64,000 bases of DNA. Origin: Hyphomicrobiales bacterium (GTDB lineage Bacteria > Pseudomonadota > Alphaproteobacteria > Rhizobiales > Rhizobiaceae). Positions within the stretch are counted from its first letter, which is position 1; each line of letters opens with the position of its first letter. Position numbers and translations under genes: made by a program. The DNA is taken from contig UCLB01000028.1 of NCBI GenBank assembly GCA_900473205.1, positions 1 through 64,000 of the forward strand. Direction: 5' to 3'. A model generated the notes under the pieces. It was given only the letters and a program-made list of their open reading frames with translations, was not told where the DNA came from and did not search any database. Of this stretch, positions 28,740-46,997 are shown one piece after another.

Positions 28740-28802
28740 GCCTCAAGAAGAACCTCGAAACATCGGTGGGTCCATGACCCGCCGATTTGAGCAGGATATT
28801 CC

Positions 28803-30685: not shown

Positions 30686-31446
30686 GCGCGGTTTTCGAGG
30701 TCGACAATCTTAAAAAGACGTTCGGCGGTCTGACCGTCACCGACAACGTCTCGCTATCGCTGATGCCGGGCGACCGTGTCGCGCTCATCGGGCCGAACGG
30801 TGCGGGCAAGACCACCTTCGTCAACCTTGTCACCGGCAATCTCCAGCCCAATTCCGGAGACGTGCGCCTCAATGGAGAGACGGTCACGAAAATCGATGCC
30901 GCAGGCCGTGTCAGGCGCGGTCTCGTGCGTTCCTTTCAGGTCACCCGGCTTTTTCAAGACATGACGCCTGCCGAACATGTAGCACTGGCAATGCTGCAAC
31001 GGGATGGCCGTGCCACCCGACTGTTCGGCAATTTTCTGACGATGCCCGATGTCATGGCCGAAGTTACAGCGCTGCTCGGAAAGCTTGGTCTGGCCGAGCT
31101 TGCGCATCGCAGGGTCAGCGAGATCGCCTATGGCCAGCAGCGCCTGCTGGAACTTGCCATGGCGCTGGCGCTGAAGCCGAAGGTGCTGCTTCTGGACGAA
31201 CCGGCGGCAGGCGTGCCGCAAAGCGATACCGGGCTTATCGAAAACGCCCTTGCAAACCTGCCCGCCGATCTCGCGGTGCTGATGATCGAGCATGACATGG
31301 ATCTCGTTTTCCGTTTTGCAAAGCGCGTGATCGTGCTGGCGGCGGGCGCCGTCATTTTCGATGGCCTGCCCGCCGATGTCACCAAGGATGCCCGCGTGCG
31401 GGAAGCTTATCTGGGGAGCTATGCCGATGCCAGCCAAGTCGCTTGA
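30682..31446 (+). CDS. LivG-like ABC ATPase
   Basis: The 254-residue ATPase has Walker A GPNGAGKTT near 37, a Q-loop around RSFQVTRLFQDMT, and signature region EIAYGQQRLLELAMALAL, where IAYGQQR replaces the usual LSxGxQR, as often seen in LivG. Walker B is VLLLDEPAAG and the switch His lies in MIEHDMDLVF. It overlaps livM and its 3' end overlaps livF. Confidence 0.92.
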   Translation: MSAVFEVDNLKKTFGGLTVTDNVSLSLMPGDRVALIGPNGAGKTTFVNLVTGNLQPNSGDVRLNGETVTKIDAAGRVRRGLVRSFQVTRLFQDMTPAEHVALAMLQRDGRATRLFGNFLTMPDVMAEVTALLGKLGLAELAHRRVSEIAYGQQRLLELAMALALKPKVLLLDEPAAGVPQSDTGLIENALANLPADLAVLMIEHDMDLVFRFAKRVIVLAAGAVIFDGLPADVTKDARVREAYLGSYADASQVA

Positions 31447-32155
31447 GGTAGAAAATCTCTCTGCCGGATACGGTCAGACCAAAGTGCTGGAAGACGTTTC
31501 CTTTTCGGTACCGGCCTGCCAGCGCCTTGCCGTGCTTGGCCGAAACGGCATGGGCAAGACGACCTTGCTCGCCACCCTCGCGGGCCAGACCAGACGCTAC
31601 GAAGGACGCATCCGCTTGGGCGACACGGACATAACGAGTGCGCCAAGCGCTTCGCGCGCCCATGCGGGCCTCGGCTATGTGCCGCAGGCGCGTTGCGTGT
31701 TTCCAACGCTGACGGTGGAGGAAAACCTGTTCGTCGGTCTGAAAGGACGACCGAAATCGGCGCTGGAAGAAGCCTACCAGATGTTTCCGCGCCTTAAAGA
31801 ACGGCGCCGAAACCTCGGCAACCAGTTGTCCGGGGGCGAACAGCAGATGCTGTCCACCGCCCGATCCATTCTTGGCCGCCCGTCGGTTCTGCTGCTGGAC
31901 GAACCGCTGGAAGGGCTTGCCCCGGTGATCTGCGAGGAACTGATGCTGGCCTTCGCCGATCTTGCCAAGACAGGCGACATGACGATCCTTCTGGTCGAAC
32001 AACGCATCCAGAGCGCGCTCGACTTCGCCGAGCAGGTCATCATTCTCGAACGCGGCAGACTGGCCTGTAACGGAACACCACAGGCACTTGCCGCTGACCA
32101 TACCACAGTTGAACGCCTTCTCGGCGTCGGCGGCCTTTTGAGCGAAGAAGCCTAG
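31427..32155 (+). CDS. LivF-like ABC ATPase
   Basis: The ATG at 31427 lies inside the end of livG, nine bases after GGGGAG; an alternative ATG is at 31421. The roughly 242-residue protein has Walker A GRNGMGKTT, signature LSGGEQQMLSTARSI, Walker B VLLLDEPLEGLAP and the switch His position occupied by Gln in LVEQRIQ, as in many LivF proteins. It ends two bases from the end of the convergent acetyltransferase-fusion gene, with no terminator between. Confidence 0.92.
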   Translation: MPAKSLEVENLSAGYGQTKVLEDVSFSVPACQRLAVLGRNGMGKTTLLATLAGQTRRYEGRIRLGDTDITSAPSASRAHAGLGYVPQARCVFPTLTVEENLFVGLKGRPKSALEEAYQMFPRLKERRRNLGNQLSGGEQQMLSTARSILGRPSVLLLDEPLEGLAPVICEELMLAFADLAKTGDMTILLVEQRIQSALDFAEQVIILERGRLACNGTPQALAADHTTVERLLGVGGLLSEEA

Positions 32156-32156
32156 A

Positions 32157-33815
32157 CTATGTGGGTACTCGCCCGCCGACAATGTCCGCTGGTTCGAAGC
32201 GATGGATTCCCTTCGGCCGGAATGGCAGGTGTTCTTCTTCACCGAGTAGCTTTGCTGAAAGCCAGACAACCGACATCCACATTTCGGTACCCTGTAATCC
32301 GGGAGGGTGGCCCTCTGCAAAGGCAAATCCCCTGCCTTTTTGCCAGCGTCCTCTGATCCGTCTCAAAGTTTCGCGCGCAATCTCTCTCACTTCGTCTTGC
32401 CTGTGATCAGTCTGCTGCAGACACAGGAGGAGGGGATGGATCGTGTCGAGCAGGTTGCAGGCGTTATAATCTTTCCCATGAAACGTTTCAAAGGCGCGAT
32501 AATTGGCAATAACGGAATCGATTGCTGCCTGCGGATGGGGAACGGACAGACTGAACTGGGCATAGGAGCCTCGGGTGAGCCGGTAAAAGCCGTTGACCGG
32601 TTGCAACAGACCCTGTTCCGCTGTTGGTTCGCCCCAAAGCCCAGTGGTTTTATCGGCATTCAATACCAGCCAACCGAAGAGAACCGCTAGGTTTTTGCCG
32701 GATGTGAAATAGCGTCTGTTGAAATATAGCGCCGTGGCGATGGCATCTATGGTGGCACCGCAGTGCCATGCCCGGCTTTGCCAGGGCAAATTTTCTAGAA
32801 GATGAATGAGGTCGTTGGCAGACATATCCTCCACGAATGCAATTGGTGCTTTCGGGGCAGTACAGAAACATTCGAGCGCATATCCGACAGCCAGAATATT
32901 ATAGAGGACGTTGGGGTCTTGTTCCGGCGGCGAAACATAGGGGCGGCTGGCGTCGAAAAACAGCCCCGTTTTGCTGTCCTGCATTGCCTGAAGGTCAGCC
33001 ACGGTTTTTTCGGCGTCAAATTCAGTGACTTGCTCTCCGAAGGCTGCGGCGATTTCTATGGCGTCGCACAGATGCCTTACACTTTCGACGTCGTTCCCGG
33101 ATGCATCGGGTGAACGATAGACGCTGCCTTTTTCATAGGAGCGGATGACGGCTCGCCAGTCACCTGCGATCTTCTCGCCGATTTCACGCAGCAGGTTTTC
33201 GGTTTCCGTCGGTTTTACAGCCTGCGTCTGCTCACCGCGGTATTTCAAGACGCGGGCGGGAACGCCGGCTGCAATGGCCATGGCAGGAATGTCCTTTGCC
33301 ACCGCGGCACCTGCGGCAATAATCGCGCCGCGGCCTATTTTCACACCGTCCAGAACGACCGCATTGGCCCCGATCCAGACATCGTCGCCAATCTCGATGC
33401 CGAGCGAGGTCAACGGCTGTCGGTAGATGGGGGTGTCGATATCATCGAAACCATGGTTGAAACCGACAATGCTGACATGGGAGGCGATGCGTACGCCGTT
33501 GCGGATCCTGACCTTCCCGGAAATGCAGGCATAGGGGTTGATCGACACGTTTTCGCCGAGTTCGATATCACCGCGCACGATGGCGTAACCGGCAATCCAC
33601 GACTGCGCGCCCATCACCAATCTGTCCGTGTGGACCTCGGCTTTGGCGGCGATGTAGACGCCCAGCCCGAAATGAGCGTTGGCGGAGTGCTTCAAGCGGT
33701 TCAAACGCACCTGATGTTCGGGATTGTCGATATCCTCCTGTTTCCGTTCCCATGTAACGATATTCAGCCGATCCGACCTTTGGCACATCGTCGGCGCTTC
33801 GTCGGTCATCTGCAT
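32157..33815 (-). CDS. left-handed beta-helix acetyltransferase fused to a helical-repeat domain
   Basis: The 552-residue protein has two parts. Residues about 45-205 are a hexapeptide-repeat (LbH) acyltransferase: repeats such as [20 protein letters not shown], then [26 protein letters not shown] with a candidate catalytic His, [19 protein letters not shown] and a [11 protein letters not shown] end. Residues about 240-540 resemble none of the transferases: repeated Trp-rich helices ([47 protein letters not shown]) suggest an alpha/alpha toroid of the type found in glycosidases or lyases. Its ATG overlaps the DUF2264 stop by one base. It may acetylate an oligosaccharide intermediate or a surface glycan, but the role is unknown. 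Confidence 0.75.
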
Positions 33816-35680
33816 CAGCCTTCGCGATTTTCGTTGAGGGCAAAGGCCGGAACCCGCTGTGCTTCGCGCCGGAACAACTCTTCCAATTCAGACAAATCAG
33901 GAGCTACGGGCAATGTGGCCAATACAGCTTCTGCCGCCTTGTCGGCGGGAAGCGCCACGCAAGCTGTTACAAGAAGCGTCTCGCCTGTCGCAATGGTTCC
34001 TCGCAACTGCGGCACAAGGGTTCTGGCGTGTATGAGATTGGTGTTGGCGATTGCCTGATGGCAAAGCCCGGTCCGCCGGGTTCCAGTCGACAGATCGAGG
34101 ATAGCACTCGTGTCGGTCTGCCCATCGCAGACGGCGCGGCCTTCGCCCTCTTCTGTCCGGTCACGATTGAAGTCGGCTCGTTCTATGGCAAATCCGCCTT
34201 CGGATGTTTGCAGCGGACGCGGGGTGCGGATGCGATGCAGCCTGATGTGCCATGGATTTTGCGGCACGAGCCACGTCTCGATCTCGACATCCGCCCATGG
34301 CCTCCAGCGCGAATAGAGGCAGTCCTTGGCAATCAAAGCCTCTTCCATCGTCTCGCGGGTGCGAAAGTGAACGCCATCGTCGGATAACCCCAGCATCCCG
34401 TCGAAACTGGCTGCCGCAAAATGCCTGTCGTCTGCCTCGATGTTGAAGGCGTAGCGTGTCGAATAGACGAATTTCGAATATTTCTCCTGCGCACCGCGCA
34501 TCTTGTCATGCTGCTGGCCCGACGAAAGAATGACGACATTGCCGGGTGTGTGGAACGCGACCATGCCGGGTTTGGGCAAGGGCACTGGCGCTTCAAATGT
34601 CTCAGCCTCCGCCTCCGGCGCTGTCCAGAACGGATGGTCGCCAGGCAGTGCCAGGGGAAGGAAAAACTTCAGCGCCCAATAGGGTGAGCAGGGAGAGTTG
34701 TAACTCTCGCTCATCAACAGATTGGGGTATCCGTAACCGATAGATAACACGCCATCACGCTCACAGATCGGCAGCTTCCCCCACCATCTGATGTGGCGCA
34801 TATAATAACCTTTGACCTGAGACCACGGCAGCGCCTCAAGATCAGCAAAGGCGAGCCCACCCCAGAAGCCGCCTGCCGCGAAACGATAGCTCTGGCTGCG
34901 TCCGAAGGCGAGCGAAGCACCATCCGGCCCGAACCAGTGGCGGATATCGCTGGCAAAGCGTTTGGAGCGCTGAAGCAGCCGGGTTTTACGCGCGTCATCA
35001 CCTTTGGCCAGCACCGTATAAATCAGCCCATAGAAATGCATGGCGAAGGGTACGTAATGATCGACCCGCCGCACCGGTCCATCGCTATACCAGCCATCGC
35101 CAATGTCGAAGGCCTCAAGCTCATCGAGATAGGCATGCGTTTTGGATGTGTCGAATGCCACGCCCACCCGCTCGAGACCAAGATCGATGAGCACGCGGAA
35201 GAACTTCCAGTTATTGTCAACGAATTCCCGTTCGCGCGCGGCCAGCAGATAGGCGGCGACAATTTCTTTGTCGGCCTCGTCCAATGGCTCCCAGATGTGC
35301 TGCGGCACCATGGCCAGTGCAAAACCGATGGCGGCCAGTTCCACAAGCCGCTGGTTACGGTCGGAAACATTGCCCCAATATTCGGCGTGATCAGGGTTGG
35401 TACCATTCGCCAGGCCGCGCCGGTACAGGTCCCAATGCGGGAAGTCATACCCGCCAGCCGCCAGCGGGACGATGCCCCAAAGCGGCCTCGCAAATCCTTC
35501 CAGTTCCGCTGCCGGATAATCGAATATCGCACCCGTGGCACTCAGCCGCACACGCGCTCCACCTTCGGAGAAATACGGCAGAAGCGGGTTGAACAAATCC
35601 ATTACCGCTTTAGCAAGATCGTCTCTCGTCAGCAGCGGATTGTTGAAAAGCGGGTTGGCCTTGGCGCTATCGTGATGCAC
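33815..35680 (-). CDS. DUF2264-family protein, predicted glycan-active enzyme
   Basis: The 621-residue protein carries the DUF2264 region over about residues 10-370, with [31 protein letters not shown] and [38 protein letters not shown] and [12 protein letters not shown] follow. The helical first part and beta-rich remainder (about 390-600) recall the toroid-plus-sandwich build of heparinase-type lyases. There is no signal peptide, so it should act in the cytoplasm. It lies between the ABC binding-protein gene and the acetyltransferase fusion. Activity on an imported uronate-containing oligosaccharide is likely but unproved; no catalytic residues can be assigned with confidence. Confidence 0.82.
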
Positions 35681-35711
35681 GGCATGTCTTCCAAAAATAG
35701 ATCATAAAAAC

Positions 35712-35738
35712 GGCGGTCGCAAAAGACCCGCGACCGCC
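35712..35738 (-). terminator. intrinsic terminator after the binding-protein gene
   Basis: GGCGGTCGC (35712-35720) pairs with GCGACCGCC (35730-35738). Read on the minus strand the stem is followed by GTTTTTAT. It sits seven bases after the binding-protein stop and 32 bp before the DUF2264 start, so it probably reduces read-through into the two downstream genes and may raise binding-protein mRNA relative to them. Confidence 0.75.
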
Positions 35739-35744
35739 TGATGC

Positions 35745-37025
35745 TTACTTGATGGCTTTGACGCCGTCGTCCATATCCTTGATGCCGTCATCGATGGAGA
35801 TGTTGTCGGTCATCAGCGCATCATGGACGCGGTTCAGCACGACTTCGATCTTCGCGGCATTCGGGTTGACGGCCATTTCCAGATAGGCCTTGCCAGCCTT
35901 CAATGCATCCTTGCTGTTCTGGTCCTGCGGAAAGCCGGGAAGGGCTGCAATGGTCTGTGCAACCGTGTCCGATCTCAGCGCCGGGAATGTGCCGGTGGAG
36001 GCGACGATGGCTGCCCCTTCCGGGCCGGTCACGAACTTGATGAAATCAAGCGCCGCTTCCTTGTGCGCGGAATTGGAGTTGACCGACAGGCCGGAAATCT
36101 GCGCCGCCGTCGTGCCAGCCTCCACGCCCTCGGGATGCGGGAACTTCACGATGCCCCAATTGACGCTCTTGGATTCGCCCGACTTCACCTTGGCGATCTG
36201 CGTTCCCATGAACCATGTTCCCATCGGCAACATTCCGATGGTGCCATTGAAGAACAGCGCGGAATAATGGGTGTTGGAGGTTTTCAGCGATGCATAGGAG
36301 GGGATCGCACCACTCTTTTGCAGCGCCAGCGCGCGCTCATACCAGGGCTTCAGAAATTCGTATTTGCCATCGACCAACGTCTGCTTGCCGTCCTGAATAC
36401 CAGGCAGTTGCACGGTCGAGCGCCATGTGTGCAGCAGCGCGCCATAGGTGCGGTTCTGGCCCATGCCGCCCTTGAGCTTGGTGGCGATCTCATCGAACTG
36501 CGCCCATGTCATGTCATTGGTGGGGTAGGGGACACCGGCCTTGTCGAAGATGTCCTTGTTGTAATAGACGATCCAGAAATCGGAGCGGAACGGCAAGGCG
36601 TAAATCTTGCCATCTACCGTCAGTTCCTCGATCAGCCCGCCATAACCGGCCGGGTCGATCTTCTGGTCCTTCATATAGCTGCTGAGATCGGCAATGTTGC
36701 CGGCGCGCACAAGGTTGGCATAACCCGGCACATCCTTGATGGTGACGATGTCAATGTCCTTCGAGCCGCCGGTCAGTTGCGTCGAAATCATCTGCGTGTA
36801 GTCCTGCGAACCCAGATCGACAGGCTCGAAACTCACATTGGGGTGCTTGGCTTTATAGGCATCCATCAGCGGTTTGAAATAGGCCCCCTTGTCGAGATCC
36901 CACAGCGCCCATTTGAGAGTCACCGGCGCATCGCTCTGCGCAAAAGCCGCTCCTCCCATGCCCATGGCAAGGCTTATGCCTGCGGTGGCCAAGGCGAATG
37001 CTCGTCGTGTCGTGTTGAATTCCAT
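35745..37025 (-). CDS. sugar ABC transporter binding protein
   Basis: The 426-residue family-1 extracellular solute-binding protein begins with a leader containing twin Arg (NTTRRAFALATAGISLAMGMGG...FAQS), so Tat export is possible. The mature part begins VTLKWALWDLDKGAYFKPLM and has the YALPFRSDFWIVYYNKDIFDKAG motif typical of oligosaccharide-binding proteins. Neighbouring GH88 and lyase genes suggest an unsaturated or uronate-containing oligosaccharide as ligand. Confidence 0.9.
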   Translation of the reverse strand: MEFNTTRRAFALATAGISLAMGMGGAAFAQSDAPVTLKWALWDLDKGAYFKPLMDAYKAKHPNVSFEPVDLGSQDYTQMISTQLTGGSKDIDIVTIKDVPGYANLVRAGNIADLSSYMKDQKIDPAGYGGLIEELTVDGKIYALPFRSDFWIVYYNKDIFDKAGVPYPTNDMTWAQFDEIATKLKGGMGQNRTYGALLHTWRSTVQLPGIQDGKQTLVDGKYEFLKPWYERALALQKSGAIPSYASLKTSNTHYSALFFNGTIGMLPMGTWFMGTQIAKVKSGESKSVNWGIVKFPHPEGVEAGTTAAQISGLSVNSNSAHKEAALDFIKFVTGPEGAAIVASTGTFPALRSDTVAQTIAALPGFPQDQNSKDALKAGKAYLEMAVNPNAAKIEVVLNRVHDALMTDNISIDDGIKDMDDGVKAIK

Positions 37026-37050
37026 AGTCGGTTTCCTCCCGGACTGTTGC

Positions 37051-37752
37051 TTATTGATTGTGTCGGTCAGCGCGTCCCTTTGGGGTCAAAGGTCTCGATA
37101 TGCCGGCTGCAAAGCAGATGGCGAAGATGCCAAGCGAAAAATTGATGGTGGCAGGCATGAACACCGACACTGGGTAAAACAGGATATGTGCAAGCCAAAG
37201 CGCCGCTACGAAACCCAGTGCTGCCAGCATCGGAAGCGGCTTTACAAGTGCCAGTAACGCTGCTTGTCGAAACAGGCCCAGAAGCGGCAGGTCGCGTGTC
37301 ACCGTCAGCACGATGGCATAGGCGGATACGAGGCTGATAAACAGCGTCATGACGATGCTGATCGCCAAAGGCAGGCTGTAGATCAGCCCATCCGGTGCGG
37401 CTTTTGCATAGGTGATGACGGCGTAGGTGCTGGTACCCATCAGGGCCGCACAGGCCACGATCAGCACCGTGCCACGCAAAGCATAATGCCGAAACGCCTC
37501 GACAAAATCGCGCAGCAGATAGGTGTTTTCATCCGATACGATGGAGCGGGACACCCGCGCTGTTGCCAGCGTCGCCGCGGGCATGGTGACCAATGGCAGG
37601 CTGGCGATCAGGAACAGAAGATTGAGCTTCACCAACTCCCACCACTCGCGTTTCAGAATATCAAAGAACAGGGCAAGGCCGGTGGGACGCGGGGCATCCT
37701 TGTCGATCCCGGCTCCCTCCCTTGTCCACAGTCCTTCAAGCCATTGCATCAT
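37051..37752 (-). CDS. YesL-like (DUF624) membrane protein
   Basis: This 233-residue protein has five to six predicted membrane segments and the DUF624 pattern (LNLLFLIASLPLVTMPAATL near residue 45, then RDFVEAFRHYALRG). YesL proteins are common in Gram-positive bacteria next to sugar ABC transporters for pectin fragments, for example beside the rhamnogalacturonan genes of Bacillus. Here it lies between the ATPase and binding-protein genes. Its role, possibly as an accessory transporter subunit, is unknown. Confidence 0.85.
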   Translation of the reverse strand: MMQWLEGLWTREGAGIDKDAPRPTGLALFFDILKREWWELVKLNLLFLIASLPLVTMPAATLATARVSRSIVSDENTYLLRDFVEAFRHYALRGTVLIVACAALMGTSTYAVITYAKAAPDGLIYSLPLAISIVMTLFISLVSAYAIVLTVTRDLPLLGLFRQAALLALVKPLPMLAALGFVAALWLAHILFYPVSVFMPATINFSLGIFAICFAAGISRPLTPKGRADRHNQ

Positions 37753-37767
37753 ACGCCTCCCAGCGGG

Positions 37768-38877
37768 TTAGTAGAGAATGGAGCGCTCGGTTTCCGGGTC
37801 GAACAGCTGTGCCCCGGTCAAGTCGGCAATGAGGGTGATGTCATCACCTAGTCTGGCCTTGAAGCGTGGCGAGACGCGCGCGATCAGCGCCTTGCCGCTC
37901 GATACGAGATTGAGGTGAACCTCCGATCCCATGGGCTCGGCCAGTTCCAGCGTGGCGTTGAACGGCACGGTATTGGCCGCATCGATATCGGCGGGTGCAA
38001 ACTCGTGAAAATTCTCGGGCCGAATGCCGAGAATAACGTCCTTGTTTTCGTAAGCGCGCAGCCGCTCGGCATCGATGCTGGCAGGCAGAGGCATCGGCGT
38101 GCTATCGAATACGGCGACGAAACGCTCGCCGTCGCGCTTCAATGTCACCGGCAGCATGTTCATCTGCGGTGCGCCGATAAAACCGGCAACGAACATATTG
38201 ATGGGCCGGTCATAAAGCTGCTGCGGCGTGTCCACCTGCTGGATGTGGCCGTCCTTCATCACCACGATGCGGTCCGCCATCGTCATCGCTTCGATCTGGT
38301 CATGCGTCACATAGATGAAGGTCGCATCCAGCCGCTTGTGCAGCTTGCTGATTTCCGCCCGCATCGTGCCGCGCAGCTTGGCGTCGAGATTGGACAGCGG
38401 CTCATCGAGAAGGAAGACTTCGGGGTTGCGCACCATGGCACGGCCCAGCGCCACACGCTGCCGCTGCCCGCCGGAGAGCGCTTTCGGCTTGCGGTTCAAC
38501 AGATGGGTGATGTCGAGAATATTGGCGGCTTCCTTCACCTTTTCATCGATAAAGTCACGCGGCGCCTTTCTCAGTTGCAGACCAAAAGCCATGTTCTTGT
38601 AAACAGTCATATGCGGGTATAACGCATAGTTCTGAAACACCATTGCGATGTCGCGGTCCTTGGAGGGCACGTCATTCATCATGTCCTCGCCGATGCGAAG
38701 CTCGCCACCGGAGATTTCCTCCAGCCCGGCAATCATGCGCAACGTCGTGGATTTGCCACAGCCGGAAGGGCCGACCAGAATGATGAATTCCTTGTCGGCA
38801 ATCTCCAGATCGATATCGTGGACAACCTTGAGCGCACCGAAGGTCTTATTGAGTTTTTTCAGCGAAATGCTTGCCAT
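37768..38877 (-). CDS. sugar ABC transporter ATPase (MalK/UgpC type)
   Basis: A 369-residue ATPase with Walker A GPSGCGKST, Q-loop FQNYALYPHMT, signature LSGGQRQRVALGRAM, Walker B FLLDEPLSNLDA and THDQ switch. The C-terminal TOBE/OB domain is from about 235. It has the same architecture as the ugpC gene at 20035 but serves another transporter. It is 15 bp from each neighbour, consistent with one transcript. Confidence 0.94.
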   Translation of the reverse strand: MASISLKKLNKTFGALKVVHDIDLEIADKEFIILVGPSGCGKSTTLRMIAGLEEISGGELRIGEDMMNDVPSKDRDIAMVFQNYALYPHMTVYKNMAFGLQLRKAPRDFIDEKVKEAANILDITHLLNRKPKALSGGQRQRVALGRAMVRNPEVFLLDEPLSNLDAKLRGTMRAEISKLHKRLDATFIYVTHDQIEAMTMADRIVVMKDGHIQQVDTPQQLYDRPINMFVAGFIGAPQMNMLPVTLKRDGERFVAVFDSTPMPLPASIDAERLRAYENKDVILGIRPENFHEFAPADIDAANTVPFNATLELAEPMGSEVHLNLVSSGKALIARVSPRFKARLGDDITLIADLTGAQLFDPETERSILY

Positions 38878-38892
38878 ATCGTCCTCACGCGC

Positions 38893-40065
38893 TCACCAGT
38901 AGGAGGCCCAGTTGCGGGACAATCGCGTCAGGGCTTCCAGATAATAATAATCGCCCCAAGACACGCACTCATCGACGCCTTCGCCGCGGCAGGTGTTGTG
39001 CGGCGTTTTCTTCGAATAGGTGCCGTGCAGAAGCTGGCCGTTGGAGATGGCAGGGTCCTTGACCGAGTAGCTATCGACAAGGCTCTTCACCATGCGCCGG
39101 GCCAGATCCCGATACTGCTCGGCCTTGTCAGCCTCTTCCAGATCGGCCATTTCGAGCAGGCCGCAGGCAACGATGGCCGCTGCCGAACTGTCGCGGGGTT
39201 CGCCGTCTTTGTCCGTGAAGACGAGGTCCCAATAGGGCACGAGATCGGAGGGCAGGCGCTTCAGGTAAAAAGCCAGCAGCCGCTCGAAAGCATCACGGTA
39301 TGCGGGCAGCCGTTCATAGCGATAGGAGAACGCCATTCCGGCGATGCCCCAGGCCTGTCCGCGCGCCCAATAGCTCTCGTCGCTGTAACCCTGCTTCGTT
39401 ACGCCCCGCACCGGTGCGCCGGTGTCCGGGTCCATGTAGAAAGTGTGGTAGGTGGAATCGTCCGCACGTACAGAGTGGGCAAGCGTGGTGCGGGCATGCG
39501 CCAGCGCAACATCGCGGTAGTCCTCTCGACCCGTCTGCTCGGCGGCCCAATAGAGCAGCGGCAGGTTTAGCAGGCAGTCGATGATATAGCGATATTCATT
39601 CGGGTTGCCCTTGCGGCCCCAGGCCTGAATGAATTGCCCGATGGGTTGAAACCGCTCCATCAACTGGTCGGCTGCCATCAGGGCCGCGCGCTTGCCATCC
39701 TCATCCCCCACCAGCTTCCAGGCAGCGATGCAGGACGGCGAATAGAGAAAGCCCATATCGTGGTGATCGGTCTCGATGCGGTTTTCGATCCGGTGCAGAA
39801 AGCTCTGCACCTGTATCTGTGCGGCGTGCTGAAACACCTTGTCGCCCGTATGCTCGAAGGCCAGCCATATCTGCCCCGGCCAGAAACCGGCGGTCCACTG
39901 GTCATTGGCAACAGCGGGATAAAAATTGCCGACGCTGGAATGGTTTTGCGCCTTGTAAGTAAAGTCGGGCAGGTTGCGTCGTACCTGTTCTACGGCTGTT
40001 GCCATGGCCGCGTGGACCTCGGCTGAGGTGATCGGATCCGGTTGGGTGTTGGTAAAATTCAGCAT
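38893..40065 (-). CDS. GH88 unsaturated glucuronyl hydrolase
   Basis: The 390-residue protein matches GH88 enzymes along its length: NDQWTAGFWPGQIWLAFE near 55, DHHDMGFLYSPSCIAAWKL near 95 with the first catalytic Asp, YRYIIDCLLNLPLLYWA near 155 with the second Asp, RGQAWGIAGMAFSYRY near 235. These enzymes hydrate the C4-C5 double bond of the unsaturated uronic acid left by polysaccharide lyases, releasing it from the oligosaccharide. No signal peptide, so it acts inside the cell on imported fragments. It lies five bases from the permease gene upstream. Confidence 0.93.
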   Translation of the reverse strand: MLNFTNTQPDPITSAEVHAAMATAVEQVRRNLPDFTYKAQNHSSVGNFYPAVANDQWTAGFWPGQIWLAFEHTGDKVFQHAAQIQVQSFLHRIENRIETDHHDMGFLYSPSCIAAWKLVGDEDGKRAALMAADQLMERFQPIGQFIQAWGRKGNPNEYRYIIDCLLNLPLLYWAAEQTGREDYRDVALAHARTTLAHSVRADDSTYHTFYMDPDTGAPVRGVTKQGYSDESYWARGQAWGIAGMAFSYRYERLPAYRDAFERLLAFYLKRLPSDLVPYWDLVFTDKDGEPRDSSAAAIVACGLLEMADLEEADKAEQYRDLARRMVKSLVDSYSVKDPAISNGQLLHGTYSKKTPHNTCRGEGVDECVSWGDYYYLEALTRLSRNWASYW

Positions 40066-40069
40066 GATA

Positions 40070-40906
40070 TCAACCCTTGATCCCCGAGGAAGCGACGCCT
40101 TCGACGAAGAAGCGTTGCAGTGCCAGAAAAACGATGAGAACCGGGATCAGCGCCACCACGGAAGCCGCCATGATCAGCCCGTATTCCGCCGAATATTGCG
40201 AAATGAACATGCGAAGCCCGATCTGGATGGTCTTCAGCTCGGTCTTCGTCAGGTAGATCATTGGCCCCAGAAAGTCGTTCCAGGTCGTGACGAAGGTGAA
40301 GATCGTCAGAGTCGAGAGCGCAGGCTTGGAGAGCGGCAGCATGATCTTCGCCCAGATCTGGTATTCGTTCATGCCATCGATGCGCGCCGCTTCGCACAGC
40401 TCGTTGGGGATCGACATATAGAACTGCCGCATCAGAAACACGCCGAACGCGGTGAAGGCTTGCAACAGGATCAGCGCCAGATGGGTGTTGTTGAGCCCGA
40501 ATTCGCGCATCAGCAGGAACTGCGGCACCATATAGACCTGCCACGGCATGGCGATGGTGGCGATATAGCCTAAAAACAGCGTGTTCTTGTAGGGAAAATG
40601 CAGCTTGGCAAAGGCATAGGCCGCGAAGCTGGATGTCAGCAACTGCATGATCGTGACGATAATCGTCAGCTTCGACGTGTTGTAGATAAACAGAGCCAGC
40701 GGAATCTTCGTCCAGATTTCGGTATAGTTTTCCCAGCGTGGCTGCGCCGGTATCCACTCGATGGGAAAGGCAAAGACATCGCGGCTGAGCTTGAGCGATG
40801 CCGAGAGCATCCACGCAAACGGCAGCAGCATGACGATGGTGATCACGATGACCGTGGCGTAGACGGCAATCGTTCCAGCGGTGACTTTCCGGCCCATGAT
40901 CCGCAT
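40070..40906 (-). CDS. sugar ABC permease, MalG-like
   Basis: Starting at MRIMGRKVTAG (about 40906) the protein has 278 residues and six predicted membrane segments. The EAA loop is CEAARIDGMNEYQIWAKIML near residue 185, and the C terminus ends with ALQRFFVEGVASSGIKG, typical of this family. A longer frame from a TTG at 40981 overlaps the upstream permease and is unlikely. It pairs with the MalF-like subunit. Confidence 0.92.
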   Translation of the reverse strand: MRIMGRKVTAGTIAVYATVIVITIVMLLPFAWMLSASLKLSRDVFAFPIEWIPAQPRWENYTEIWTKIPLALFIYNTSKLTIIVTIMQLLTSSFAAYAFAKLHFPYKNTLFLGYIATIAMPWQVYMVPQFLLMREFGLNNTHLALILLQAFTAFGVFLMRQFYMSIPNELCEAARIDGMNEYQIWAKIMLPLSKPALSTLTIFTFVTTWNDFLGPMIYLTKTELKTIQIGLRMFISQYSAEYGLIMAASVVALIPVLIVFLALQRFFVEGVASSGIKG

Positions 40907-40910
40907 CGCC

Positions 40911-41855
40911 TCAGTCCTCCCGCTGCCGTTTAAACTGGACGACGGTGACGGCCAGCACGAGGAAGAACAGAACCAGCGCAATCATGCTCGAATAGCCGAG
41001 ATCCCAGGAGATGAAGGCTTCGTTGTAGATGTGATAGACCAGAACCAGCGTCGATGTGCCGGGTCCGCCCTGCGTGATCATGTAGACCTGATCGAACACC
41101 TTGAACGACTGGATCGTCAGCATCACGGTGACGAAGAAGGTTGTCGGCGCCAGTTGCGGCAGGGTGACGTGGATGAACTTCTGCCAGGCATTGGCCCCAT
41201 CCAGCCCCGCCGCCTCGTAGAGCTCGGAATTGATGCCCTGAAGCCCGGCGAGATAGATCACCATATAATAGCCCATGCTCTTCCAGATGCCGAAGAGAAT
41301 GACGGTGACCATCGCCCAGTGCCGGTCTGCCGCCCAGCCGGGCATATCTGCGGGGTCCATGCCCAGCGTGTAAAGCAGCATGTTGACCGGCCCCATTTCG
41401 GGGTTGAAAATCATGTTCCAGACGACAGCCACGGCCACCAGCGAGGCGACATAGGGAAAGAACATCGCGGTGCGGAAAAAGTCTCGACCGAGGATTTTCT
41501 GGTTGAGCAGAACCGCCAAGCCCAGCGCGCAGGCCAGCGTCGCAGGCACCGAGACGACGGTGTAGATGATCGTATTCCAGAAGGCGGCGATAAATGCCTT
41601 GTCTTCGAACAGGCGCCAGAAATTATCCAGCCCCGCAAAGCTCATCGCGTTGGAGCCATCCCAATGCATGAAGGCCAGCGCAAAGGCGAAGAGAATGGGG
41701 CCGAGCGTGAAGATGGCAAAGCCGAGAAAGTTCGGAGCAATAAAGGAATAGGCGATCAGCGCATTTTCGATCCGGCGCCGTCTCTTGGAAACGATCCGCA
41801 CCTTCTTCTTGCGGTATGGGGCCGCCTGTGTGTCGGACGCGGTCGCAATGGCCAC
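40911..41855 (-). CDS. sugar ABC permease, MalF-like
   Basis: The 314-residue protein begins with a basic N terminus (PYRKKKVRIVSKRRRRIENA), then six predicted membrane segments with the first near residue 35, and the EAA loop YEAAGLDGANAWQKFIHVTL near residue 220. It is the first gene of the leftward operon, divergent from the heparinase gene across 224 bp. Confidence 0.92.
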   Translation of the reverse strand: MAIATASDTQAAPYRKKKVRIVSKRRRRIENALIAYSFIAPNFLGFAIFTLGPILFAFALAFMHWDGSNAMSFAGLDNFWRLFEDKAFIAAFWNTIIYTVVSVPATLACALGLAVLLNQKILGRDFFRTAMFFPYVASLVAVAVVWNMIFNPEMGPVNMLLYTLGMDPADMPGWAADRHWAMVTVILFGIWKSMGYYMVIYLAGLQGINSELYEAAGLDGANAWQKFIHVTLPQLAPTTFFVTVMLTIQSFKVFDQVYMITQGGPGTSTLVLVYHIYNEAFISWDLGYSSMIALVLFFLVLAVTVVQFKRQRED

Positions 41856-42028
41856 GGCATTCCTCCCATTGTCGGTCAGCCGTCGTCATAATCGGCGCAG
41901 ACCGGCTGCAACATCTCCTGCAATCAGATTTTCACCTGACGCCTCCTGCCGTTTTGATAACACAAAATCCGCATTGGTCAAACAAGTTCGCATAACGTCA
42001 GACAAATTCTCTGGAGATTTGAAAAGAC

Positions 42029-42035
42029 GTATGAT
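42029..42035. promoter_or_regulatory. GTATGAT motif in the divergent promoter, possible GntR half-site
   Basis: GTATGAT at 42029-42035 lies 45 bp before the heparinase GTG start, in the 224-bp region between the leftward ABC operon and the rightward lyase genes. The same heptamer recurs at 45440-45446 and inverted at 45468-45474 just upstream of the GntR gene. A shared regulator site is therefore plausible but a 7-mer can recur by chance. Confidence 0.35.
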
Positions 42036-42079
42036 AGGAGCCTTGCTAACGAATATCGAACGCGCGGGAGGTTGAGGGC

Positions 42080-43858
42080 GTGTTTGCAGAGTTGATACCG
42101 CGCCTGCCGGATCGGCTGGGTGATTTTGCAGCCGATATCACGGCTGAACGCATCCGCCACTCAGCGTCACGGATCAGTCGCGCAGAGCTGATCGATGCCG
42201 CCGTGAAGGAGCTCAATGAGCCATGGTCCACCATCCTCGCCAGCGACTACATGGAGTATACCCAGAACGGCAATCGCTCGCGGTTCGAGGCCCTCTATTT
42301 CGCCCGCCGCCTGAAGCTGAACGCACTGGTTATGGGCGAATGTAACGAGGGCGAGGGGCGCTTTCTCGCTGAGATCATCAACGGCCTGTGGCTCATCTGC
42401 GAAGAAAGCGGCTGGCAGCTGCCCGCGCATAATTCGCATGTCCGTGGCGGTCCGCGTACTCCGCTGCCGGACCCACAAAACCCGGTTATCGATCTCTTTG
42501 CAGCCGAGACGGCGTCCAATCTGGCGCTGGTGTCGCGCCTGCTCGCCTCCCGACTGGACGCCACCCTTGTGGCGCGGATATCCAACGAAATCGACCAGCG
42601 CATCACAAGGCCATACCTGTTGCGCCACTTCTGGTGGATGGGCAATGGCAAGGAGCGGATGAACAACTGGACGGCGTGGATTACCCAGAACATCCTCTTT
42701 TCCACATTCCTGCGGCCGACCGATCAGCCCACCCGCCGCGCCGTTGTCGAGAAGGCCTTGAAAAGCCTCGATGCTTTTCAGAAAGACTATGCTGACGATG
42801 GCGCCTGCGAAGAAGGCGCGCTCTATTATGGCCACGCGACGCTGTGCCTGTTCACGAGCCTCGCGGTTCTGGAAGGTGCTGCCCCCGGCATCGCGGGCGC
42901 ACTTCTGCGCGAAGACAAGCTCCGCAACATGGCCGAGTTCATCCGGCATATGCATGTCGCCGATGATCAGTTCTTCAATTTCGCAGATGCCCCGGCGCGG
43001 TTTGAGACCAGCGGCGTGCGGGAGTATCTCGTCGGAAAAACCATCGCATCGCCATCGCTTCAGGCCTTCGCCATAGATCGTTGGCAGCGTTCGTCAAAGC
43101 GTCTGATGCAGGATGAGTGGAACCTCTGGTATCGCGTTCAGGCGGTTCTGGCAGAGCAGGAACTGGCTGAGGCGATCCCTCTGCCACCTCCAAAAGTCGA
43201 TATGGTCTATCCCGGCATAGAACTCGCCATCGCCCGCGATGCTGTCTTCGATCTGGCGGTCAAGGGCGGCAACAATGGCGAAAGCCATAACCACAACGAT
43301 GTCGGCAGCATCACGCTGTACAAGCATGGACGTCCCTTCCTCATCGATGTCGGCGTCGAAACCTACACTGCCAAAACCTTCTCGCCACAGCGTTACGACA
43401 TCTGGACCATGCAATCGGCCTTCCACAATCTGCCCAGCTTCGGTGGTGTCGTGCAGAGGGATGGCGAGGCTTTCGCGGCCCGCGATTTTCGCGTCGATTT
43501 CGCGGGAGACCGCGCCGAAATATCGCTGGACCTTGCTGCGGCCTATCCACCCGAGGCCGGTGTCCGCAGCTACACCAGAACCGTCAGGCTCATCCGTGGT
43601 CAGCACGTCGAAATTATCGACGACCATGAGGGCGAGCGCGATGCGGTCCTGTCACTGATGACGGTCGATAAGCCCAGAATTTCAGGTGAAACACTGGTTC
43701 TGGGTGATCTCGGATCGATTGAGATCGCAGGCGCGTGCGACCCCGCCATCGAGACGATCCAGATCGATGATCCGCGCCTGCGTCAGTCATGGCCAGACAT
43801 CCTGTACCGTACCCTCATTCCGCTCAAAGGCAAACGCCTTCGCCTCGTCATCCGCTAA
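42080..43858 (+). CDS. heparinase II/III-family polysaccharide lyase
   Basis: The gene starts with GTG at 42080 after GGGAGG and encodes 592 residues. The first part (about 60-360) is a helical toroid; the second carries the heparinase II/III motif GGNNGESHNHNDVGSITLYK near residue 395, with FLIDVGVETYTAKTFSP after it and a beta-sandwich to the end. The His and Asn of HNHND match family active-site positions. There is no signal peptide, which is unusual for lyases acting on polymers but fits a cytoplasmic enzyme working on imported oligosaccharides. With GH88 it would form a two-step degradation route: lyase, then unsaturated glucuronyl hydrolase. Confidence 0.88.
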   Translation: MFAELIPRLPDRLGDFAADITAERIRHSASRISRAELIDAAVKELNEPWSTILASDYMEYTQNGNRSRFEALYFARRLKLNALVMGECNEGEGRFLAEIINGLWLICEESGWQLPAHNSHVRGGPRTPLPDPQNPVIDLFAAETASNLALVSRLLASRLDATLVARISNEIDQRITRPYLLRHFWWMGNGKERMNNWTAWITQNILFSTFLRPTDQPTRRAVVEKALKSLDAFQKDYADDGACEEGALYYGHATLCLFTSLAVLEGAAPGIAGALLREDKLRNMAEFIRHMHVADDQFFNFADAPARFETSGVREYLVGKTIASPSLQAFAIDRWQRSSKRLMQDEWNLWYRVQAVLAEQELAEAIPLPPPKVDMVYPGIELAIARDAVFDLAVKGGNNGESHNHNDVGSITLYKHGRPFLIDVGVETYTAKTFSPQRYDIWTMQSAFHNLPSFGGVVQRDGEAFAARDFRVDFAGDRAEISLDLAAAYPPEAGVRSYTRTVRLIRGQHVEIIDDHEGERDAVLSLMTVDKPRISGETLVLGDLGSIEIAGACDPAIETIQIDDPRLRQSWPDILYRTLIPLKGKRLRLVIR

Positions 43859-43870
43859 GGGAGAATGCCG

Positions 43871-44659
43871 ATGAAGCTCACACTCAAGGTCGTCAACGCC
43901 GCTGGCGTCGTCCTGTCGCAATCCAGCCATGACGACGAAGTTTTTCTGGTCTATCGCAGCGAATATACCGAAGGTGACCGGATCGTTGTGGAGACGTCAG
44001 AGTCCGGCCATATCGACCTCAGTCTCGATGCTGGCATGCCGCCCGCGCGTGTCTTTCTGGCGGGGCGAGACTTCTCGCTGCCCGTCCCCTTCGGCCCGAC
44101 ACGCAAGACCTATCCGCCGCAGGCCTTCCTCGGAAATCTCCACCGCATCTCCGTCTGCCGCTTTCATCCTGCTGAGGCCTCGATACGTCGAAATCTCGCC
44201 TTCAATCCCTTCGATCATCACGACAACACGGCGCTCTTTCCGCACGCCAAAGCCAATGTGGAAACGCGCGGTGAGGCGGTCTTTGCGGCCCGCAATGCCA
44301 TCGATGGTGAAAAGGCCAATACCGATCACGGCTTCTGGCCCTATACCAGTTGGGGTATCAATCAGGACCCGGCGGCAACGCTCACTCTGGCATTCGGACG
44401 ACCCGTACTGGTTGATCAGGTCACGCTGTATCTCAGGGCAGATTTCCCCCACGATGCCTGGTGGAACGAGGCGAGCATGACATTCTCAGATGGCCATGTT
44501 CTGACCGTCCCCCTGGTCAAATCCGGTGCCGCCCAAACCTTCGCCATGCCGCCCCGCACGATGGAATGGGTGCGGCTGCACGATCTGAAAAAGGCTGACG
44601 ATCCATCTCCATTTCCGGCGCTCACGCAATTCGAGGTCTGGGGCGCGGACATATCTTAG
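43871..44659 (+). CDS. uncharacterised beta-sandwich (discoidin-like) protein
   Basis: The ATG at 43871 has AAGGGAG at good distance; another ATG two codons earlier is too close to it. The 262-residue product has no signal peptide and no membrane segment. Residues about 135-260 resemble an F5/8 type C or discoidin-like carbohydrate-binding fold (AARNAIDGEKANTDHGFWPY near 135, TLTLAFGRPVLVDQVTLYLR near 180). The first 100 residues are beta-rich. It immediately follows the lyase gene and ends overlapping the convergent GntR gene by four bases. Function unknown; it may bind or process the lyase product. Confidence 0.7.
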   Translation: MKLTLKVVNAAGVVLSQSSHDDEVFLVYRSEYTEGDRIVVETSESGHIDLSLDAGMPPARVFLAGRDFSLPVPFGPTRKTYPPQAFLGNLHRISVCRFHPAEASIRRNLAFNPFDHHDNTALFPHAKANVETRGEAVFAARNAIDGEKANTDHGFWPYTSWGINQDPAATLTLAFGRPVLVDQVTLYLRADFPHDAWWNEASMTFSDGHVLTVPLVKSGAAQTFAMPPRTMEWVRLHDLKKADDPSPFPALTQFEVWGADIS

Positions 44660-45402
44660 TTGGCGGCGATCCCGCGCAGATCGCGCATCATCTCGCGGTA
44701 GCGAAGCTGGCTGCCGCGCAGATGCTCCTGCATCGCAAGCTTTGCCGCCTGCTCGTTGCGATCTGAAATCGCAACGATGATCGCCTCATGCTCCCTGTGG
44801 ATTAGCTGTCGATAAGCCGTTTGATCGACCTCCTGCTGCTTTAGAGCGAAGCGGGATTGGGGAATGGCCGCCGGTCCGTGCAGCTCCAGAAATTGTGTGA
44901 ACAGAGGATTGTTGGTTGCCGCTGCAATCGCAAAATGCAGAGCGAGATCCGCCTGGCGGATGGACTGGTTGTTCTCGATACAGTCCAGCACCTTGGAATG
45001 GCAATCGAAGATCGCCTCTTCCTGCGAAGGCGACCTGCGAAGTGCTGCAAGCCCGGCCGCCTCGATCTCCAGCGGCGTGCGGATCTCCAGCACTTCGAGA
45101 TCCGAAGACAATCTCGCTTTGTCAATTTTCACCGGAGCGCCATCTTTCTCCTGCTTAAGAACGAAAATGCCAGCTCCCTGACGGACCTCCACCAATCCGT
45201 CGCAGCGCAAAGCTGTTACTGCTTCGCGAACGACGGTACGGCTGACGCTATGCGTCTCCGTCATCTGGATCTCACTGGGCAGACGGTCGCCGGGTCCGTA
45301 TCGGCCAGACGCAATCGCGTCTCTCAGACTCACGCTGACTTTGGTCACGAGAGACCCGGAAGATTTGCTGCGTTTTTGCTTTTCTGACACGTCGGTCACC
45401 AT
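44656..45402 (-). CDS. FadR-subfamily GntR regulator
   Basis: The ATG at 45402 gives 248 residues beginning MVTDVSEKQKRSK; a longer frame begins with TTG at 45465 inside a likely operator. The N-terminal winged HTH is at about 20-85 (LRDAIASGRYGPGDRLPSE, then SVSRTVVREAVTALRCDGLV). An all-helical FCD ligand domain follows (about 105-235) with an IRTPLEIEAAGLAA start. FadR-type regulators near uronate genes (UxuR, ExuR-like) respond to hexuronates or their metabolites. It is convergent with the lyase operon. Confidence 0.9.
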   Translation of the reverse strand: MVTDVSEKQKRSKSSGSLVTKVSVSLRDAIASGRYGPGDRLPSEIQMTETHSVSRTVVREAVTALRCDGLVEVRQGAGIFVLKQEKDGAPVKIDKARLSSDLEVLEIRTPLEIEAAGLAALRRSPSQEEAIFDCHSKVLDCIENNQSIRQADLALHFAIAAATNNPLFTQFLELHGPAAIPQSRFALKQQEVDQTAYRQLIHREHEAIIVAISDRNEQAAKLAMQEHLRGSQLRYREMMRDLRGIAAN

Positions 45403-45439
45403 AAGTTGAAGTCGAGCTAAGCGTGTGCTTGACAAATAT

Positions 45440-45474
45440 GTATGATGAATTTTGAAATAACTCAATGATCATAC
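45440..45474. promoter_or_regulatory. inverted repeat upstream of the GntR gene
   Basis: GTATGAT (45440-45446) and ATCATAC (45468-45474) are perfect inverted copies 21 bp apart, followed by CAATTTTT; CATACCAATTT resembles one half of the UxuR-type site TTGGTATACCAA. This lies 38 bp upstream of the GntR ATG, as expected for autoregulation. Confidence 0.45.
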
Positions 45475-45857: not shown

Positions 45858-46868
45858 TTAGCTGCCGTTACCATCCGCCACTGGCTGGAAGAAAACGTCC
45901 TGCCATTTCTCCAGCTTGGTTTTCAACAGGCCGGCTTCGTTCATGAAGTTCGCAAAAATCATCACGCCTTTTGGCTGAACACCCCATTCGCCTTTGACGT
46001 CTTCGAGCATTTTTTCGATCTGTTCGGCATTCAGAGAGGATTTCTCGGAGGCCAGAAAGATGCTGGCGGCTTCCTTGGGGTTGTTTTTGATGAACTCGTC
46101 AGCCTCTTCAATGGCTGCGACGATGGCAAGCGAGGCCTGCTTGCGGTCTTCGACAAATTTGGCAGTCGTTGCAAGCAATCCGCTCGTCACTTGCTGGCCC
46201 AGATAGTCGGAGAAGTTGAAGAGGTGATGGATTTTAGGATCGGCGGCCACGACGTCGCTATAGGGGTGGGGCGCGACATAGGCGCTGATCGTTCCTCCGG
46301 CCAAGAGACCACTGGTGGCATCCGGGTGCGGAAGTTGCACCATGGATGTATCGAGATGCTTTGCGTCGCCAAATGCTTTCTTCGCTGCCATCCGAACAAG
46401 AAGTCCCTGCTGGCCTGTGGTCGATGTTACGGCTATGCGGTCGCTCGGGCCTAGGTCTTTGAGTTCTTTGATGTCGGCTTTGTTGGTGTAAAGCCCGTTG
46501 TCGCCTGCCACCAAAGCCGCAAGCCCGCGGATTTTGATGGATGACTTGGTCTTTTCCGCTGCAATCAGCATTCCGGGCAGGCCATAGGCGCCGATATCGA
46601 CCGTGCCGCTGATCAAAGCGTCGTTGATGGCCGGTGCGCCGCTGATCTTCTTGATGTCGACTGTGGTCTTAACGCCTTTGGCGTCCAGTTGCTTGGCGAA
46701 AAAGCCTTTTTGCTCGGCGACCACAACCGGAAGATAGGCGTAACCGTACTGGATCGCGATTGATATCGGTTTTTCTTCGGCAGCGTGTGTTCCACTGGAT
46801 GCGACTACGAAAACCGACAGTGTGGTGAAGATGGCTATAGCGGCGCGACGGCTAAGTTTCTGTTGCAT
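45858..46868 (-). CDS. NitT/TauT-type ABC binding protein, first of two
   Basis: GGGAGGA precedes two adjacent ATG codons; the second (46868) has the better spacing. The 336-residue protein has a signal peptide (MQQKLSRRAAIAIFTTLSVF... THAAEE) and then ISIAIQYGYAYLPVVVAEQKGFF, the NMT1/SsuA-like start. It resembles the binding protein at 49838: both have SG.PAINDA, SDRIAVT and VQLPHPDAT, and both end in NGS. It has no ATPase or permease of its own nearby and may share those at 50851-52546. Confidence 0.88.
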   Translation of the reverse strand: MQQKLSRRAAIAIFTTLSVFVVASSGTHAAEEKPISIAIQYGYAYLPVVVAEQKGFFAKQLDAKGVKTTVDIKKISGAPAINDALISGTVDIGAYGLPGMLIAAEKTKSSIKIRGLAALVAGDNGLYTNKADIKELKDLGPSDRIAVTSTTGQQGLLVRMAAKKAFGDAKHLDTSMVQLPHPDATSGLLAGGTISAYVAPHPYSDVVAADPKIHHLFNFSDYLGQQVTSGLLATTAKFVEDRKQASLAIVAAIEEADEFIKNNPKEAASIFLASEKSSLNAEQIEKMLEDVKGEWGVQPKGVMIFANFMNEAGLLKTKLEKWQDVFFQPVADGNGS

Positions 46869-46889
46869 CATTCCTCCCGAAATGCTTTT

Positions 46890-46908
46890 TTTGAAACGTC
46901 GTTTCAAA
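46890..46908. promoter_or_regulatory. 19-bp palindrome, candidate IclR operator
   Basis: TTTGAAACGTCGTTTCAAA has perfect 9-bp arms around a central T. It lies 21 bp upstream of the leftward binding-protein gene and 89 bp before the rightward amidohydrolase gene. It closely resembles known IclR-family sites such as KdgR (core GAAAC...GTTTC). A degenerate copy occurs at 49735-49753. Confidence 0.7.
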
Positions 46909-46997
46909 ATAATGAGATCATCCCTTTCCTGTTGTCAACTGGAAGCTTGGGAATTCCTGATGTTTGGTTCTTTCGCCGGCGAATTTGAGGAGGATCG

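Follow-up and report, generated by a model that had tools for sequence, protein, structure and literature searches.

A predicted locus for the import and intracellular degradation of glucuronate-containing oligosaccharides in Rhizobiaceae

In a 64,000-nucleotide stretch of DNA from the Rhizobiaceae (contig UCLB01000028.1, called the window here), the locus at 32157-45465 carries genes for an ATP-binding cassette (ABC) importer, a DUF624/YesL-like membrane protein, a glycoside hydrolase of family 88 (GH88), a heparinase II/III-type lyase, a DUF2264 protein, a discoidin-like protein, a hexapeptide acyltransferase fusion, and a FadR-type regulator. The original prediction had listed these genes and read them as a set for taking up and degrading uronate-containing oligosaccharides, and family profile scans recovered every named gene at its position. 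The assignment of the heparinase to polysaccharide lyase family 33 (PL33) and of the DUF2264 protein to the predicted β-D-glucuronate dehydratases goes beyond what that prediction could see, and both bear on how the locus may work.

The lyase gene (42080-43858, plus strand) scored 30 bits with its Pfam family, and its product scored 291 bits with BcPL33HA (8r73) and 279 bits with BtPL33HA (8r75), spanning residues 33-589. Against PL35-type lyases the scores were only 50 (a chondroitinase), 42, and 38 bits. An identity as PL12 or PL35 was rejected, the comparison giving either no match or scores far below those for PL33. According to the published work on PL33, N238, Y291, and H444 are invariant, Y470, F475, R103, H154, L174, W224, and W239 are conserved, and position 242 is Trp in PL33_1 and Val in PL33_2, with His301 covarying with Trp242 (PMC11848413). 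One constant offset for BtPL33HA fitted 11 of these 12 residues, and BcPL33HA gave the same outcome. The window lyase kept all 11 placeable residues (R66, H117, L139, W185, N196, W197, W200, Y249, H403, Y429, and F434), thereby sharing with BtPL33HA and BcPL33HA the catalytic, subsite, and clamp positions, including the PL33_1 Trp (PMC11848413). The twelfth, position 301, was left out of the count: under the offset that places the remaining 11, the BtPL33HA chain itself has Asp there. All 11 residues were invariant across 18 aligned sequences, namely the window's and 17 of 18 locus sequences (L043 was omitted). Since Trp200 occupies PL33_1 position 242, the lyase was placed in this subfamily. 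The heparinase is thus a member of PL33_1, for which lyase activity and a cytoplasmic location are predicted. The +1 subsite of PL33 is specific for glucuronic acid (GlcA), whereas the negative subsites determine the polymer (PMC11848413), so the enzyme would be expected to require 4-substituted GlcA. Characterised PL33 members act on glycosaminoglycans (GAGs) or gellan, and a term search of the main text of that paper returned no word starting with 'rhizobi' (PMC11848413).

The DUF2264 gene (33815-35680, minus strand) encodes a two-domain protein matching PF10022 (416 bits) and PF20938 (DUF2264_C, 159 bits). Its solved relatives at E < 0.001 were two β-D-glucuronate dehydratase entries from Bacteroides caccae and one GH154 'beta-galactosidase'; the dehydratase 9o4u was matched with 107 bits by phmmer (E 5.9e-30) and with 135 bits by a profile (E 2.5e-38). 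In 2025, "GH154" proteins were proposed to be β-D-glucuronate dehydratases: BcGDH introduces a 4,5 double bond in a terminal GlcA and GH88 then acts on the product, while BT_3677, the founder of GH154, which is described with a second domain, is likewise a dehydratase (PMC12269599). Ten alanine mutants of BcGDH were inactive, with a warning from the authors that the test substrate was poor (PMC12269599). All ten of these essential residues are kept in the window protein (E61, R65, N156, N157, W158, F161, Y209, R261, Y265, and Y327). In an alignment of the window protein with 28 of 37 further sequences, nine of the ten were present in 29/29 sequences, and N156 in 27/29. The AlphaFold2 model had a mean predicted local distance difference test (pLDDT) score of 82, and its values were mostly below 50 in two stretches at or close to the active site (residues 200-208 and 306-332). 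It matched the α/α toroid fold of the GH154 family, aligning with 9nwf, 9o4u, and 8oi4 at Z 25.4-28.5 over 342-344 residues, and the next matches, other toroid enzymes, reached 15.9. From homology, residues, and modelled fold, the DUF2264 protein is predicted to be a GH154-type β-D-glucuronate dehydratase.

The top structural match, 8oi4 (Z 28.5), was deposited as a GH154 β-galactosidase, and the first reports on GH154 gave glycosidase activities (summarised in PMC12269599). Both would suit a true exo-glycosidase, either a β-glucuronidase or a β-galactosidase, that trims neutral or uronic ends between the lyase and GH88 steps. We regard such a role as quite unlikely, because Alvarez et al. found the hydrolase activity to be inconsistent between preparations, obtained dehydratase activity for both BcGDH and BT_3677, and did not see a glycosidase-like active site (PMC12269599), and because the dehydratase-site residues listed above are retained without exception.

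The GH88 gene (38893-40065, minus strand) aligned with the unsaturated glucuronyl hydrolase (UGL) of Streptococcus agalactiae at 379 bits (E 1.9e-112), with D103 and D163 falling on D115 and D175 of that enzyme. D115 and D175 are the two catalytic aspartates of the streptococcal enzyme, and D175N is the mutant named in entry 3ank. This gene product is accordingly annotated here as a predicted unsaturated glucuronyl hydrolase with a predicted cytoplasmic location. For the released uronate, KduI (414 bits against a cut-off of 250) and KduD (396 bits against 339) are both encoded in the window genome. In the actinobacterium Cellulomonas sp. URHE0023 (locus L108), the genes that come directly after GH88 are one of the KduI family and one for a short-chain dehydrogenase.

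The importer genes all lie on the minus strand: a family 1 extracellular solute-binding protein (35745-37025; SBP_bac_1, 124 bits), an ATPase of the UgpC/MalK type (37768-38877; PRK11650, 462 bits, over the cut-off), permease 2 (40070-40906; BPD_transp_1, the start being placed by homologues of 278 amino acids), and permease 1 (40911-41855; BPD_transp_1, 66 bits). Among them, on the same strand, is a DUF624/YesL/MusI-like membrane protein (37051-37752), which scored 31 bits with DUF624 (cut-off 24) and 62 bits with the MusI family, below the cut-off of 160. No SusC/SusD pair, the mark of a Bacteroidota-type polysaccharide utilisation locus (PUL), was found; transport is encoded by the binding protein, two permeases, and the ATPase. 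A rough hydropathy scan revealed a hydrophobic N-terminus after RR in the solute-binding protein (best 12-residue mean 1.84), indicating an export signal, whereas no signal-peptide-like start was seen in the lyase, DUF2264 protein, GH88, or acyltransferase. Import would therefore probably precede cleavage. The original prediction had the grouped parts all apparently lacking signal peptides, which held for these four enzymes; the discoidin-like protein, with a fairly hydrophobic N-terminus (1.62), may carry one, and the solute-binding protein does have a signal. The discoidin-like gene (43865-44659, plus strand) encodes a putative carbohydrate-binding protein of the F5/8 type C, DUF7402 kind (DUF7402, 32 bits; F5/8 type C, 22 bits, below the cut-off of 28). 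The C-terminal half of the protein was highly conserved among 17 aligned sequences, and no sequence match in the PDB was obtained at E 1.

The layout resembles several known systems, and the claim of a 'distinct' pathway made in the original prediction was too strong, since both haloarchaeal loci with lyase, GH88, GH154, and ABC genes (PMC13260240) and a dehydratase-GH88 cycle in B. caccae (PMC12269599) have been published. PUL25 of B. caccae, comprising PL35, GH88, BcGDH/'GH154', and GH109, likewise brings together a lyase, GH88, and a DUF2264/GH154-type dehydratase, which turns saturated GlcA ends into targets for GH88 (PMC12269599). In that PUL of a gut Bacteroides, however, the lyase is PL35 and a GH109 hexosaminidase is present (PMC12269599), whereas the window locus has PL33, an ABC importer with a YesL-like protein, and enzymes in which no signal peptide is apparent, and the genes scanned included no glycosidase for neutral sugars. 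In contrast to PUL25, its DUF2264 protein has the two-domain form described for BT_3677 (PMC12269599). The haloarchaeal GAG clusters (GAG lyase, sulfatase, GH88, GH154, and an ABC disaccharide transporter) share an ABC importer, GH88 and GH154 predicted to be cytoplasmic, and a plasmid location, but their lyase is placed beside PL8 genes and the set includes a sulfatase (PMC13260240). In the window, the lyase is a PL33 without an apparent signal peptide, and no sulfatase was found. The GAG cluster of Streptobacillus moniliformis (Smon0115-0128) has an ABC importer and a heparinase II/III-type protein and GH88 predicted to be cytoplasmic, whereas no dehydratase is listed for it and it holds PL8 and PL12 lyases, a sulfatase, and internal kdu/kdg genes (PMC5430744). 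No kduI/kduD (or dhuI/dhuD) pair, the mark of the Streptobacillus/Streptococcus type, occurs within the window locus.

These likenesses bear on whether the locus might be a GAG cluster for hyaluronan- or chondroitin-type polymers, akin to those of Streptobacillus or Bacteroides and acquired by soil bacteria. The nearest solved relatives point that way, being hyaluronan lyases for the lyase and a streptococcal GAG hydrolase for GH88, as does the arrangement of ABC, lyase, and GH88 genes in Streptobacillus (PMC5430744), joined by GH154 in haloarchaea (PMC13260240). Against this origin, neither a sulfatase nor a hexosaminidase was among the genes scanned, gellan and heparosan are also cut by PL33 enzymes (PMC11848413), and most of the named hosts are plant- or soil-associated. 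On balance, a GAG cluster is unlikely.

The occurrence of the set was then counted in 247 genomes of the family, window genome included, with a PL33 threshold of E 1e-20; these counts and the actinobacterial ones below are lower bounds, as only part of the first-look candidates was scored in many genomes. PL33 was present in 15 of the 247 genomes and 7 of 109 genera, and all 15 had GH88 (> 650 bits) and DUF2264 nearby on the same contig. The two permeases, GH88, ATPase, YesL-like protein, solute-binding protein, PL33, and DUF2264 were together in 15/15, indicating a gene grouping beyond chance. The discoidin-like gene lay beside this group in 13 of the 15 stretches fetched (one of the misses was a contig end), FadR adjoined 12/15, and the acyltransferase fusion stood beside the group in only 2/15. 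The search for the same gene set in related genomes, proposed with the original prediction, was therefore positive; as a group, the core stood, the acyltransferase fusion did not belong to it, and FadR was less constant. The same core order was found on the annotated plasmids pRL12 of Rhizobium johnstonii, p42f of R. etli, pAtS4e of A. ampelinum, and pAvF25a of A. vitis. Across plasmid records, 264 matched DUF2264 and 141 matched PL33, with many near-identical strains among them.

DUF2264 was found in 30 copies in 26 of the 247 genomes, and all 30 places were covered by the window and stretches of 15-19 kb (L026-L054). Fifteen places had both PL33 and GH88, five had GH88 alone, and ten had a D-isomer 2-hydroxyacid dehydrogenase and neither of the two; there was no mixed case. 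Phyllobacterium sp. T1293 also has the importer, GH88, and DUF2264 but no PL33. Because GH88 accompanies DUF2264 without PL33 in this strain and at the five places, the dehydratase-GH88 pairing is supported by itself.

The loci of the second kind (L006 on pSymB of S. meliloti 1021 at 549420-571213, L008, L026-L032, and L051-L053) have an adjoining D-isomer 2-hydroxyacid dehydrogenase and no GH88, with the same catalytic residues in the DUF2264 proteins aligned. Often they include a TIM-barrel isomerase-like protein, or ThuA and the acyltransferase fusion. In four of this kind from Devosia, Chelativorans, and related bacteria (L060, L062, L071, and L072), weak heparinase-like matches (80-101 bits) sit close to the left end of the stretch, DUF2264 being ~7 kb downstream of them. 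Separately, a DUF2264 protein ~48% identical to that of the window is encoded on a Halopiger xanaduensis plasmid (L007, 195284-197137) near GH28, GH78, and rhamnose mutarotase genes, which suggests a pectin-type substrate there.

Outside the family, the set was seen in actinobacteria. In the loci L100 and L108, DUF2264, solute-binding protein, permease, GH88, and PL33 genes lie beside the acyltransferase fusion, and L100 has a DUF624-like protein just below the Pfam cut-off. Eight genomes, four rhizobial and four actinobacterial, were selected for loci already seen to carry some of these genes, and PL33 and DUF2264 were together on one contig in 8/8. A wider sample comprised 248 genomes of the Cellulomonas order (E 1e-20), its seed genome included; like the window genome in the family sample, the seed genome carries the set. 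PL33 was present in 49, DUF2264 in 56, and both in 39, an overlap with a hypergeometric P of 7e-23 when relatedness is ignored. DUF2264 lay within 6 kb of PL33 in 27 of the 49 PL33 genomes, 15 of which also had GH88 within 12 kb of PL33.

The FadR-subfamily GntR gene lies on the minus strand at 44656-45402 (FCD, 68 bits; GntR, 60 bits); the end given in the original prediction, 45402, is its ATG, and TTG at 45465 is an alternative start. Between the two divergent transcription units, the operator-like motif TTGTTTGACCAAT (41973-41985, minus strand) conforms to TNGTNNNACNA, which we take to be the operator pattern of the FadR subfamily. The exact motif TTGTTTGACCAMT occurred in 21 of 139 loci collected, with one copy each, corresponding to 17 distinct places as some loci overlap. 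Among the 15 family loci it was present in 8 and absent from 7. A TTGTTTGACCA site lies between permease 1 and PL33 in 10 intergenic stretches, those of the window and nine other loci. The motif was also present without an adjacent FadR gene in L002, L003, and L044, and with up to two mismatches it is expected about once per window by itself. A FadR-type repressor probably acts at this candidate site. Beyond the regulator, at 45858-48967, are genes for an NMT1-type binding protein, a divergent amidohydrolase, and SMP-30/gluconolactonase-like proteins, apparently a separate pathway; on the other side, 27567-32155 encodes a branched-chain-type ABC transporter, apparently outside the set.

At the left end of the locus (32157-33815, minus strand; Hexapep, 58 bits) is the ACYLTRANSFERASE fusion, a hexapeptide (left-handed β-helix) acyltransferase joined to a C-terminal domain. 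At least 64 full-length homologues from several phyla were found, mostly in Rhizobiales, Actinobacteria, and Paenibacillus; the window sequence was aligned with 48 of the 64, and with 28 of those 48 in a smaller set. The model had a pLDDT of 92.7, and the N-terminal domain matched AntD at Z 23.6. The C-terminal domain covers residues ~205-552 (32160-33203, minus strand), is ~340 residues long and mostly helical, and is strongly conserved (VNG-YR-R, AC-LD, and GTEMW). In the window protein it drew no hit from Pfam, and none of the Pfam families hit more than one of the 29 members of the smaller alignment (best E 0.0034). Profile matches in the PDB were chance-like (ferritin, E 0.48), comparing its profile with those of DUF2264 and PL33 yielded no match, and the Foldseek and VIA-align matches listed for the fusion were all taken by the hexapeptide domain, leaving the C-terminal domain unclassified by these comparisons. 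A scan of genome contigs found at least 79 loci with the fusion, and 13 of the 79 matches listed had DUF2264 in their stretch as well. The fusion occurs with both kinds of DUF2264 locus, and in R. etli it lies elsewhere on the same plasmid; among the matches listed, most actinobacterial loci with the fusion showed no DUF2264. As a constant member of the core it was rejected, given its presence in 2/15 family loci.

The acyltransferase, together with the putative sugar-binding protein, might also suggest that the genes modify the exopolysaccharide of the cell itself or its turnover products, instead of feeding on outside glycans. Rhizobial exopolysaccharides contain GlcA. However, no glycosyltransferase or polymerase was among the genes scanned, the acyltransferase is missing from 13/15 loci, and an importer with a solute-binding protein plus GH88 indicate catabolism, as does the KduI-family gene with a short-chain dehydrogenase in one actinobacterial version. 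A role in the cell's own exopolysaccharide is very unlikely.

At the level of homology, active-site conservation, and neighbouring genes, the locus is best read as the original prediction had it, and we put the probability at about 75% that it is a catabolic unit importing and degrading glucuronate-containing oligosaccharides inside the cell. In this pathway, the solute-binding protein, two permeases, UgpC-type ATPase, and YesL-like accessory membrane protein would bring oligosaccharides into the cytoplasm. PL33 would β-eliminate the sugar on O4 of GlcA, leaving a 4,5-unsaturated non-reducing end, and the DUF2264 protein would remove water from an unsubstituted non-reducing-end β-GlcA to give the same Δ4,5 end. 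GH88 would then release the unsaturated residue as 5-keto-4-deoxyuronate, so that no conventional β-glucuronidase would be needed, and KduI and KduD, encoded elsewhere in the genome, would pass it towards central metabolism. Expression would be controlled by the FadR-type repressor through the conserved intergenic site, and we infer a role in the pathway for the discoidin-like protein and the acyltransferase fusion. The genes scanned at the locus included no glycosidase for neutral sugars, which favours short substrates or help from enzymes elsewhere. Candidate substrates that fit best are short oligosaccharides ending in GlcA or X-(1,4)-GlcA, structures exemplified by plant arabinogalactan-protein side chains and bacterial exopolysaccharide fragments.

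Several observations weigh against this pathway. Over the toroid, the DUF2264 protein shares only ~25% identity with the dehydratases that have been characterised, and BcGDH and BT_3677 differ in their substrates (PMC12269599), so its sugar may differ as well. The poor test substrate means that mutant inactivity may overstate the role of each residue (PMC12269599), and N156 (N176 in BcGDH) is not kept in Halopiger L007 or in L038, which belongs to the 15 PL33 loci; a second alignment (n = 14) shows the same loss in the actinobacterial L100 and L108. Ten of the 30 DUF2264 copies have no GH88 in the stretch fetched, and DUF2264 is thus not always a partner of GH88. KduI and KduD are encoded outside the locus, on other contigs (C21 and C34). 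The missing signal peptides of the enzymes come from a hydropathy scan, and their cytoplasmic location is predicted from it. In the actinobacterial sample, 10 of the 49 PL33 genomes had no DUF2264 match and 12 more had the two genes apart or on different contigs; the PL33 of L100 has no Pfam match, and other lyase families may account for the weaker actinobacterial PL33 matches (31-37% identity).

In a broader and more tentative reading, which we hold to be somewhat doubtful as a whole, PL33, DUF2264, and GH88 would form a self-sufficient cytoplasmic deglucuronidation module that brings substituted and free β-GlcA ends alike to a single unsaturated form, takes this off, and so replaces β-glucuronidase in plant- and soil-associated bacteria of two phyla. 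The substrate would be a plant or rhizosphere glycan, such as acetylated bacterial exopolysaccharide or the side chains of arabinogalactan proteins, and the unclassified C-terminal domain of the acyltransferase fusion would be one more, undescribed enzyme of the pathway.

A PL33-dehydratase-GH88 set in rhizobia or actinobacteria, with a PL33 lacking an apparent signal peptide, was not found in the open-access literature, which returned no paper for 'DUF2264' and none for these families with Rhizobium. For expression of the R. johnstonii and R. etli copies, guessed old locus tags gave neighbouring genes such as groES/groEL in the same literature, and the R. etli transporter tag RHE_PF00269, which was not tied to the locus. 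What is new here is the PL33 without an apparent signal peptide, the rhizobial and actinobacterial module, and the unclassified fused domain, whereas the chemistry is already known (PMC12269599). The assignment gives a testable function to genes on many large rhizobial plasmids that are annotated as DUF2264 or 'heparinase', and it brings to light another kind of DUF2264 locus, which has to deal with the product although no GH88 lies beside it. It also suggests that the removal of glucuronate by a dehydratase plus GH88, known from gut Bacteroides and haloarchaea, is regular in rhizobia and actinobacteria as well.

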